A DNA stretch of 64,000 nucleotides. Source: Dioscorea cayenensis subsp. rotundata. Its lineage: Eukaryota; Streptophyta; Magnoliopsida; Dioscoreales; Dioscoreaceae. The stretch spans positions 434,001 to 498,000 of the forward strand of contig NC_052472.1 of the NCBI RefSeq assembly GCF_009730915.1, in the 5' to 3' direction. The notes under the pieces are model-generated. The model did no database searches. It saw only the letters and a list, made by a program, of their open reading frames with translations, and had not been told where the DNA came from. Shown one piece after another: positions 18,850-58,657 of the stretch. A program made the translations under genes and the position numbers. Position 1 is the first letter of the stretch. Every line of letters begins with the position of its first letter.

Positions 18850-20403
18850 TTACACTGAAGGTTCATGAAAAAAAGAAGAAAAAAAAAAAGTAAATGAATG
18901 AAATGGCCATGGATGTTGAGTTTTATCTAGCGTTCGGACTTTCGATAAGAAGGCGAAAGGCGAAGAACCCATTTGGGATGAGAAGGCGAAAAGCCGACGA
19001 ACCCATTTGGGAAGAGAAGAAAGCCGACGATGAGTGCAATTAGTGTCGTCGGCTTCTACAAAGTTATTGAGCCTTTGTAATGCAAGATTGAGAGTATCTG
19101 TTGACATATTTGCGAAGCACATTCGGAAAAAACCAGGTTCTTGGCAATGACAAGAAGCTCCCGGAGAAATGTTTAGACCAACTTGGAACAATATCTTCTT
19201 CCACAGCTCCATTTCAGCTTCAAATGTTTTTGATTTAAGAAGATGTCTCATGTCTACCCAACAAAATAATCCTGCATTGCTGTTTAAGCATTTAATTCCG
19301 GCACTTTCGAGGCCGTCGACAAAGATTCGATGTCGATGTTCAAGTCTTTTCTTGTTCTCCATAATGTATTTCATCGTGAAGTCTTTATCGGAGAGCATGA
19401 CGGAGAGAAGGTACTGAGTTTGCGAAGAGATTAAACCAAAACTCGACATTTTTGTTGCGGCGGCAACAACAAGATCATCTTCCGAGTAAATTGCCCCGAC
19501 ACGAAAACCCGGTAGACCGAGATCTTTCGATAAACTATAAACAATGTGAACCTTGTTAGATACATCATCTCTTCCCTTGATGACTTCTTTGACACTGATG
19601 AATCCCGGTGAGGCGAAGACGGTGCCCGAGTAGATTTCATCACTTATTAGATGAATGTCCTTGGAAGCAATGAAGTTTATGAGGATATCAAGCTCATCTC
19701 TAGTCATTGAAGTGCCTAGTGGATTTGAAGGATTAGTGATCAACACTCCTTTAATTCTAAGATTTCGCTTCTTCGCATTGTTGTAAGCTTTCTCTAGTGC
19801 TTGTTTTGTGATCTTGAAGCCATTGTTACTCGAACAATGTATCGGAACAATCTCCGCTCCCGTTCGCCATTTGAGATCCCGATCAAAACTGTATAAAATA
19901 CAAACATATATCTTAGTCAATTTATATATTCAAATCTATATTTACCAAATTAATTAGCAATATGAGGACTAGTAATTACCCTGGATAGTAAGGAGTAGGG
20001 AGAAGAAAGGCGTCGCCTGGATCGGTGAGGCAAAACATCAAGGTCTCATTAGCAGAGGTAGCTCCTGCAGTGAGGACCAACTTCTCAGGATTGAACTCAA
20101 CTTTGTTTCCCCTCATTTCACTCATGAACTCAGCCAATGCCTATCAACAAAATTAATCATCCATAATTAACACACTAATTCAACCAATCATATATAATAT
20201 ACAACACTGTTAATTATCCAGATGATTGATAATACTTACAGACTTAAAAGCAGGCAAGCCATGGTAATCTTGGAATAGAGCTAGTTCTTTGAACATAAGC
20301 ACACCATCTTTTTTCAAAGTCATTGCTTCTTGATGACTTTCAAGCCATGACTCAATAAGGTCAAATGAGAGCTGAAACATTATAAACATATAAATAAGAA
20401 CAT

Positions 20404-20434
<31 letters not shown>

Positions 20435-20634
20435 ACCCAAAGAGATATATATTAGAACAAACGTATAGTATAACTATATATATATATATATACCTGATTT
20501 TCTGCAAGACCGAGTTGAATAATACCAGAAGGGTTGGTGAGAGGATGATAAGGGTTCTTCTCATATTCTTTCCACCCTAGAAAGTAAGAAGAGTCTTGGC
20601 CATGGGAGTTGCATGTGGCTTTCTTGGACAACAT
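18850..20634 (-). CDS. ACS: 1-aminocyclopropane-1-carboxylate synthase with altered C-terminal tail
   Basis: PLP fold-type I enzyme that makes ACC from S-adenosylmethionine, the committed step of ethylene synthesis. Four exons (20634-20494, 20371-20240, 20140-19980, 19888-18850) join in frame to 490 residues. Family landmarks are all present: GLAENQ (42-47), [18 protein letters not shown] (196-204), SDEIYSG with Asp228 and Tyr231, [14 protein letters not shown] with the PLP lysine at 266, and [11 protein letters not shown] with Arg400. The catalytic core looks intact. The tail is unusual: after [10 protein letters not shown] (about 432-441) a tandem duplication shifts the frame, so residues 442-490 are an unrelated Ser/Phe-rich extension ending HEPSV. 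Without the second repeat unit the frame would read [14 protein letters not shown] then stop, which resembles the ETO1-binding degron of type-2 ACS proteins. Synteny points to the ACS5/ACS9 group. Confidence 0.93.
18966..19029 (-). repeat. Short tandem duplication in ACS C-terminal coding region
   Basis: Two adjacent units, 19029-19000 (30 nt) and 18999-18966 (34 nt), both begin CGTCGGCTTT and both end CCCAAATGGGTT on the coding strand. The distance between the matching ends is 34 bp, which is not a multiple of three, so the second unit is read in another frame than the first. The bypassed in-line TAG lies at 18929-18927. Confidence 0.85.
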
Positions 20635-27656: not shown

Positions 27657-29814
27657 ATGAAGTTAACACTCGCATTGTCATGCCCAAACCTTCTCTGTTT
27701 CCGAGATCTCCTGAAATCCTGCATCGCCGGCGGCGACCTCGCCGGAGGCGCCGCCCTCCACGCCATCTACACCAAGTCCGGCATTCCCCATTCCACCTAC
27801 TTCTCCAACCACTTCATCCTCCTTTACTCTAAATGCGGCCTTCTCCATCACGCCCATCAAGTGTTCGACGAAATCCCTCAACCAAACGTCTTCTCCTACA
27901 ACGCGCTCCTCTCTGCGCTCGCGCGCGATCCTCTCCACTCCGACCTCGCCCCTTCCTTCTTCGACCGCATCCCCAACCCCGATCTTGTCTCCTTCAACAC
28001 CCTGCTCGCCTTCTTCTCCGCCGCCTCTCGCCCTTCCGACGCCCTCCGGCTCTTTTCTCGCATGCGCTACCTCGACGCCTGCATTGACGGGTTCACTCTC
28101 TCCTCTGTGATCTCTTCTCTTGTGGATCTCCCCGTTGATCCATTCCACTCCCTTGCCATCTCCTCTGGGCTCAACTCCTTCGTCTCTGTTAACAATGCTC
28201 TCATTAGTAGCTACAGTAAATGCGGCGCCTTGGACAAAGCTGAGCTGGTTTTCGATCGTTTGCGAGCTGGCCGTGATGCTGTTTCCTGGAATTCCATGAT
28301 CGTCGCTTACGGGCAGCACCGCGAGGGGACGAAAGCTCTGAGCTTGTACACAGAGATGGTGAGGTTGGGCTTCGAGGTGGATTTGTATACGCTTGCGAGT
28401 GTTCTCACGGCGTTCACTTCGGTGAAAGATTTGCAGGGCGGTGTGCAGTTCCACGCGATGTTGGTGAAGTGCGCGCGCGAGAGGAACGCGCATGTTGGCA
28501 GTGGTTTGATTGATCTCTATTCCAAATGTGGCCGGATTTGGGATGCTCGGAAGGTGTTTGATGAAATGCTTGACTGGGATTTAGTGCTCTGGAATACGAT
28601 GATTTCCGGGTTTTCAATGTATGAGGAATTGGCAGAGGAGGGACTGGTTTGTTTTAGAGATTTGCAGAGGTTTGGTCTCCGGCCGGATGATTGTAGCTTC
28701 GTGTGCGCAATCAGTGCTTGCTCAACCCTGTCTTCACCTTTGCAGGGGATGCAGTTGCATTCACTGGCTATGAAATCTGATGTTCGAAAGAATCAGATAT
28801 CGGTGAGCAATGCATTGATCGCGATGTATTCAAAGTGCGGGAAACTCGATGAAGCTAAGAAAGTGTTTGATAGAATGCCGGAGCGGAATACCGTGTCGTA
28901 TAATTCGATGATTGCTGGCTATGCACAACACGGACTCGGTGTTGAGGCGTTGGCCTTGTTCGATGAAATGGTTGAGTTGAATTATGTACCGACTAGTGTC
29001 ACTTTTGTTTCGGTGCTCTCTGCTTGTGCGCACACCGGACGAGTGGAGGATGGTCAGAGGTGTTTCAAATCAATGGAACAAGATCATGGGATCAAACCCG
29101 GTGAAGAGCATTATTCATGCATGATCGATGCTCTTGCCCGTGCGGGGATGTTTGAAGAGGCTGAGGCACTGATAAACAAAATGCCGTTTGATCTGGGTTC
29201 CATTGGCTGGGCTGCGTTGCTCGGGGCGTGCAGGATCCATGGGAAGTTGGAGCTTGGAGCGAAAGGCGGCAGAGAAACTACTACAACTCGAACCTTCAAA
29301 TGCAACCTCGTATGTTATGTTGTCGAACATGTATGCGAGTAAGCAAAGATGGGAGGAAGCAGCAACAATGCGGAAGCTGATGAGAGATAGAGGTCTGAAG
29401 AAAAAACCCGGTTGTAGCTGGGTCGAGTTGGGAAAGACAATACATGTTTTTGTAGCTGGAGATTTATCGCACCCGAGGATAAAAGAGATACACCAGTTCT
29501 TGGAAGAGATGAAGAAGAAGATGAAGCAGGCCGGGTATAGGCCAGACATGAGATGGGCTTTGATGAGGGATTATGCCGGAGAAGGTGAGGCGAGGTTGGG
29601 GCATCATAGTGAGAAACTTGCAGTGGCTTTCGGAGTGATCAGCACCGGGGATGGAGTGCCGATATTGGTGGTGAAGAACCTGAGAATATGTGGAGATTGT
29701 CACAATGTAATCAAGCTAATGTCTGCTATTGTTGGAAGAGAGATCACTGTAAGGGATGCACATAGGTTTCATTGTTTCAGGGATGGGCACTGTTCTTGTG
29801 GTGACTACTGGTAG
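27657..29814 (+). CDS. DYW-class pentatricopeptide repeat protein with a one-base frame break
   Basis: Intronless, as most PPR genes are. The first 1.6 kb encode PLS-type PPR motifs (for example NVFSYNALLSALARD, DAVSWNSMIVAYGQH, NTVSYNSMIAGYAQHG) from a start at 27657 (MKLTLALSCPNLLCFRDLL). At about 29265 the frame changes: before it the E domain runs WAALLGACRIHGKLELGAK, and after it AAEKLLQLEPSNATSYVMLS continues in the +1 frame to E+ and a complete DYW deaminase-like domain (HSEKLAVAFG, CGDCHN, HRFHCF, CSCGDYW stop). One extra G in the run aaagg accounts for it. Without it the protein would be about 718 residues. It strongly recalls Arabidopsis At3g49710. DYW proteins edit C to U in organellar RNA; the target here is unknown. 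As given, translation stops at 29342 and loses the DYW domain. Confidence 0.9.
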
Positions 29815-57657: not shown

Positions 57658-58657
57658 NNNNNNNNNNNNNNNNNNNNNNNNNNNNNNNNNNNNNNNNNNN
57701 NNNNNNNNNNNNNNNNNNNNNNNNNNNNNNNNNNNNNNNNNNNNNNNNNNNNNNNNNNNNNNNNNNNNNNNNNNNNNNNNNNNNNNNNNNNNNNNNNNNN
57801 NNNNNNNNNNNNNNNNNNNNNNNNNNNNNNNNNNNNNNNNNNNNNNNNNNNNNNNNNNNNNNNNNNNNNNNNNNNNNNNNNNNNNNNNNNNNNNNNNNNN
57901 NNNNNNNNNNNNNNNNNNNNNNNNNNNNNNNNNNNNNNNNNNNNNNNNNNNNNNNNNNNNNNNNNNNNNNNNNNNNNNNNNNNNNNNNNNNNNNNNNNNN
58001 NNNNNNNNNNNNNNNNNNNNNNNNNNNNNNNNNNNNNNNNNNNNNNNNNNNNNNNNNNNNNNNNNNNNNNNNNNNNNNNNNNNNNNNNNNNNNNNNNNNN
58101 NNNNNNNNNNNNNNNNNNNNNNNNNNNNNNNNNNNNNNNNNNNNNNNNNNNNNNNNNNNNNNNNNNNNNNNNNNNNNNNNNNNNNNNNNNNNNNNNNNNN
58201 NNNNNNNNNNNNNNNNNNNNNNNNNNNNNNNNNNNNNNNNNNNNNNNNNNNNNNNNNNNNNNNNNNNNNNNNNNNNNNNNNNNNNNNNNNNNNNNNNNNN
58301 NNNNNNNNNNNNNNNNNNNNNNNNNNNNNNNNNNNNNNNNNNNNNNNNNNNNNNNNNNNNNNNNNNNNNNNNNNNNNNNNNNNNNNNNNNNNNNNNNNNN
58401 NNNNNNNNNNNNNNNNNNNNNNNNNNNNNNNNNNNNNNNNNNNNNNNNNNNNNNNNNNNNNNNNNNNNNNNNNNNNNNNNNNNNNNNNNNNNNNNNNNNN
58501 NNNNNNNNNNNNNNNNNNNNNNNNNNNNNNNNNNNNNNNNNNNNNNNNNNNNNNNNNNNNNNNNNNNNNNNNNNNNNNNNNNNNNNNNNNNNNNNNNNNN
58601 NNNNNNNNNNNNNNNNNNNNNNNNNNNNNNNNNNNNNNNNNNNNNNNNNNNNNNNNN
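57658..58657. other. Assembly gap of exactly 1000 N
   Basis: Round length indicates a placeholder of unknown true size, placed inside the repeat region. Apparent open frames across it are meaningless. Confidence 0.99.

Follow-up and report, generated by a model that had tools for sequence, protein, structure and literature searches.

A tandemly doubled, type-2-like C-terminal segment in an ACC synthase gene and a single extra base that may mask it

The gene analyzed here appears to encode a type-2-like ACC synthase in which the C-terminal segment resembling the target of ETO1 was tandemly duplicated with the reading frame kept (33 bp, 11 codons). In the sequence as given, there seems to be one extra base in or beside a run of four Ts, which pushes the frame past a TAG stop codon into a stretch resembling a 3' UTR. 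On balance, this base is probably a consensus or assembly error, in which case the real protein would most likely end with the doubled segment at the bypassed TAG. Such a doubled end would still be a putative target of ETO1/EOL, as suggested by its last 14 residues, which share both form and length with an ETO1-binding segment of LE-ACS3. The gene lies within a window of 64,000 nucleotides, the whole stretch of DNA that was analyzed; the relevant features are collected in Table 1.

A first-pass annotation of the same DNA had proposed that a tandem duplication rewrote the C-terminus of the enzyme and removed its degron-like end, producing an allele similar to eto2 that would escape ETO1 control and raise ethylene. 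The identification of the ACC synthase, the near-duplicate in the tail, the hidden type-2-like end and the lack of this end in the given frame all stood up in the present analysis; the duplication as the cause of the frame change did not.

Table 1. Positions of the ACC synthase gene and of the elements of its 3' end, in coordinates of the window
Feature	Position	Strand	Description
ACC synthase gene	18850..20634	-	exons 20634-20494, 20371-20240, 20140-19980, 19888-18850
Unit 1, 30 bp	19000..19029	-	10 residues, aligned with RRQSLTKWV of 1ynu; in the last exon
Unit 2, 34 bp (33 + 1), near-copy	18966..18999	-	reads 11 residues if one T fewer
T4 run (TTTT on the minus strand)	18989..18992	-	units 1 and 3 have three Ts here
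Unit 3, partial, CTTCGCCTTTCGCCTTCTTATC	18944..18965	-	hidden frame LRLSPSY
Hidden-frame type-2-like end, 14 residues, with TAG stop (18929-18927)	18927..18971	-	
Read-through stretch, last ~25 residues of the given frame	18850..18926	-	3' UTR-like composition

Gene model and identity of the enzyme

Exon 1 was kept fixed while the GT-AG splice choices near the visible exons were enumerated, and only one of the enumerated models was free of internal stop codons, namely, the four-exon ACC synthase listed in Table 1, which is otherwise intact. As given, the gene comprises 490 codons and ends at the TAA codon at 18852-18850. The protein contains the aminotransferase class I/II domain (Pfam Aminotran_1_2, PF00155, E 2e-102), and its best match among the solved structures is PDB 1ynu (E 1.2e-214, 716.7 bits, residues 1-445), which we take to be the apple ACC synthase, with 7dlw (568.9 bits) and 1iax (566.8 bits) as the runners-up. 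The domain together with a strong, near-full-length match to characterized enzymes identifies the product as an ACC synthase, as the first-pass annotation had maintained. The solved ACC synthases that were matched are 1ynu, 1m4n, 1b8g, 7dlw, 1iax and 7dly.

The protein of 1ynu, the closest solved sequence, has the pattern RRxSLxKWVxRL aligned to unit 1. Unlike the gene studied here, it shows a single copy of the motif (KWVSRLS, with RRQSLTKWVSRLS at the matching place) in the part that is aligned, to residue 463 of 473. Scans for the catalytic part were run over two non-plant collections, which are uninformative on plants: 7 stretches fit the pattern in viral contigs and 39 in prokaryote genome contigs, none of which was confirmed.

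Repeat structure of the tail and the hidden frame

Units 1 and 2 were found where the first-pass annotation had placed them, sharing the end CCCAAATGGGTT, 34 bp apart. The repeat search yielded a 30-nt family with 90% identity at a spacing of 34 and a second, 18-nt family with 89% identity at a spacing of 33, and TRF reported a score of 117 with a period of 34. The top ungapped repeat score in the segment 18700-19200 (501 bp, offsets 12-59) was 21, compared with a mean of 7.7 and a maximum of 12 among 300 dinucleotide shuffles of this segment; the tail repeat is well above chance. The earlier description can be refined in two respects: a third, partial unit follows unit 2, and the 34-bp offset is better represented as 33 + 1.

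Treated as straight 34-bp copies, the repeats differ at 6 of 34 positions, whereas the 33-bp copies obtained by dropping one T differ at only 3 of 33. Each base of 18920-19060 was deleted in turn, with periods of 32-35 allowed, and the minimum of 3 mismatches was reached only by a deletion in the T4 run (18992-18989) or at the GG at 18994-18995, either of which yields the hidden frame. The GG fits the repeat as well as the T4 run does; the latter is preferred as the site of the extra base because units 1 and 3 contain TTT where unit 2 has TTTT and because this choice keeps RLS, so that the T4 run appears to be the likeliest place of the frame-changing base. The copies match at offset 34 up to the T run and are in register at offset 33 past it. 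Judging from these alignments, the simplest description is a frame-keeping 33-bp (11-codon) duplication and one separate extra base. Over its first ten bases, unit 2 is identical to unit 1 and matches unit 3 at 8 of 10 positions, so the history is more complex than a single clean duplication of 33 bp, and the units may also have exchanged sequence.

These observations bear on the view that a single 34-bp duplication itself moved the frame. This account invokes one event rather than two and accommodates the ends 34 bp apart, but it leaves 6 mismatches in 34 positions, where the 33-bp copies need 3 in 33 and a single indel, and conflicts with the offset-33 register past the T run; we consider it improbable, and the earlier claim that the duplication changed the frame is not borne out. 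The duplication alone doubles the degron-like end rather than removing it, and the removal hangs on one base. Because short tandem repeats are easily mis-assembled and the scaffold contains an N gap, it could be argued that the whole of unit 2 is an assembly artefact. A copied-in artefact, however, should match a neighbor, whereas unit 2 is identical to neither of its neighbors and differs from the next copy at 3 of 33 positions even without the T, making this explanation less probable still.

In the given frame, the TAG at 18929-18927 is present and bypassed, as had been noticed before, and translation would run to the terminal TAA; the sequence at the motif reads WVRRLFA, and the protein ends in SV. 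Removing one T makes the protein stop at the TAG, with the degron-like end restored and doubled, and reading from unit 1 into the sequence after unit 2 gives precisely the 18-residue end that had been proposed. The hidden frame thus encodes a WVxRLS...ER end that the given frame lacks. A single instance of the pattern W-[VG]-x-R-[LV]-S followed by 5-9 residues and an ER-stop is present among the six frames of the window, and 20000 shuffles of 18900-19060, each read in three frames, produced none; the core W-[VG]-x-R-[LV]-S alone occurred 6 times in 20000 shuffles of this segment.

PMC1199607 delineates type 2 ACC synthases by WVF directly ahead of RLSF, 5-8 residues following RLSF, an abundance of R and D/E in the tail, and ER as the last two residues; PMC10707884 and PMC12611960 describe the motif in like terms. 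Measured against that definition, the hidden end is type-2-like rather than a strict type 2 member. It reads WVLRLSP, identical to WVFRLSF at 5 of 7 positions, and so does not have WVF before RLSF; 7 residues (SYRKSER) follow RLSP, where the definition has 5-8 after RLSF, a spacing that the given frame does not provide; and the tail ends in ER and contains R, K, E and R, but only a single acidic residue where the definition calls for richness in R and D/E. The same paper still classes LE-ACS8, with WGF, as type 2. The similarity to the type 2 enzymes with the TOE (target of ETO1) end (AtACS4/5/8/9 and LE-ACS3) encompasses the body of the ACC synthase and, in the hidden frame, W-V-x-R-L-S with 8 further residues ending in ER. 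The differences are WVL and RLSP in place of WVF and RLSF, the doubling of the segment, and its absence from the given frame. According to an experiment described in PMC1199607, residues 456-469 of LE-ACS3 put on LE-ACS2 sufficed for strong ETO1 binding in yeast; this segment has 14 residues, the same length as the hidden end. A literature search with exact motif strings found WVFRLSF and did not find WVLRLS, WVSRLS or WVFRVS. The doubled tail motif may be the part that could be new.

Codon usage was compared along the tail. Beyond the TAG, none of the three frames of the read-through stretch scores as coding (log-odds of -0.31, -0.55 and -0.63 per codon, TAG included). As controls, 11 chunks of exon 4, themselves included in the training set, were scored: 9 gave values from 0.25 to 0.63, and the other two 0.05 and -0.42. 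From the T run to the TAG, the frames could not be told apart by codon usage (0.73 per codon in the hidden frame vs 0.84 in the given one); the slight preference for the given frame is of no help to the interpretation of the extra base as an error.

Sequence error or eto2-like allele

The surroundings of the gene point to an error. Some 10 kb from the ACC synthase, the PPR-DYW gene at 27657-29814 likewise has one base too many: as given, its E motif aligns to profile positions 7-63 with 74.1 bits, and when read with one base fewer, to positions 1-63 with 80.0 bits. Its extra base lies within about 29253-29271. The only run of Ns in the window, at 57658-58657, has a length of exactly 1000 N, which is suggestive of a scaffolded draft. 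Together, this second lesion and the gap make a consensus error likelier, in our judgment, than a real frame change, a substantial but lesser possibility even when both readings with a real frameshift are considered jointly. Several observations point the other way. The lesion in the PPR-DYW gene could reflect a real pseudogene, and no frame break was detected by eye in the exons of the OSCA-like gene, from 14017 to 10176, while the leucine-rich repeat ORF at 61333-60503 is open, so that indels are not widespread in the window.

The main competing interpretation is that of a real eto2-like allele, in which, besides the frame-keeping duplication, the T run independently gained one base, resulting in an enzyme without the ETO1-target end. 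The assembly as given shows a C-terminal frame change, which such an allele would have to carry in the genome of the plant; the T run is a natural slippage site, and the given frame is open for 45 codons past the TTC codon of this run. In kind, the comparison with eto2 is a fitting one. This mutant is described as having an insertion of 1 bp, by which the last 12 residues of ACS5 are predicted to be disrupted (PMC10767074), and as a frameshift that stabilizes the protein (PMC10813531), and both eto2 and eto3 change C-terminal residues required for ETO1 recognition (PMC3080859). The gene studied here resembles eto2-1 of AtACS5, as outlined in PMC10767074, in that a one-base insertion near the C-terminus swaps the end of the protein as given. 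In contrast to eto2-1, which PMC1199607 presents as a tested dominant ethylene overproducer, the extra base is putative here, and its effect is a predicted one. The presence in the window of a second gene with the same kind of lesion and the undecayed state of the hidden end argue against a real allele, which we regard as less probable than an error. We know of no duplication in eto2-1.

Two further scenarios take the extra base to be real. The length of the T run could vary between individuals, three Ts specifying a doubled degron, perhaps with tighter ETO1 control, and four Ts a stable eto2-like enzyme, such that slippage would toggle ethylene production; this appears rather unlikely. It is hardly credible that the extra T is bypassed by a +1 ribosome slip at CTT-TTC, with both ends made, a scheme for which the intact hidden frame is the only support.

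Under the interpretation that we favor, that is, a frame-keeping duplication with an erroneous extra base, the gene would retain its degron-like end in two copies. Because the duplication keeps the frame, the predicted loss of ETO1 control and the rise in ethylene are conditional on one base, and the eto2-like claim rests on a base that could easily stem from faulty sequencing or assembly. If real, the doubled end offers a test, set up by nature, of whether ACC synthase is turned over differently when it carries two ETO1-target-like segments. Should the extra base be real as well, the gene would parallel, as a natural variant, eto2, which is a dominant ethylene overproducer in Arabidopsis; if it is an error, it exemplifies how one base of a draft genome may pass for a regulatory allele.

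Other features of the window

Across the window, ARAGORN predicted 0 genes, and there were 0 Rfam matches at gathering scores; Pfam assigned no family to 3 of 10 stretches in one set and 7 of 10 in another. The PPR gene, on the plus strand, encodes E, E+ and DYW domains and, apart from the break described above, is open to the end of the DYW domain. On the minus strand, a channel gene in several exons (14017-10176) matches the Pfam families RSN1_TM, PHM7_cyt and RSN1_7TM and is presumably OSCA/CSC1-like. The ORF at 61333-60503, also on the minus strand, combines leucine-rich repeats with a transmembrane-like stretch and ends in KVSHLMPDY, an arrangement that, we assume, recalls RLP44. Finally, an exon of a DEAD-box helicase is located at 48109-47804 on the minus strand (Pfam DEAD, E 6.1e-16).
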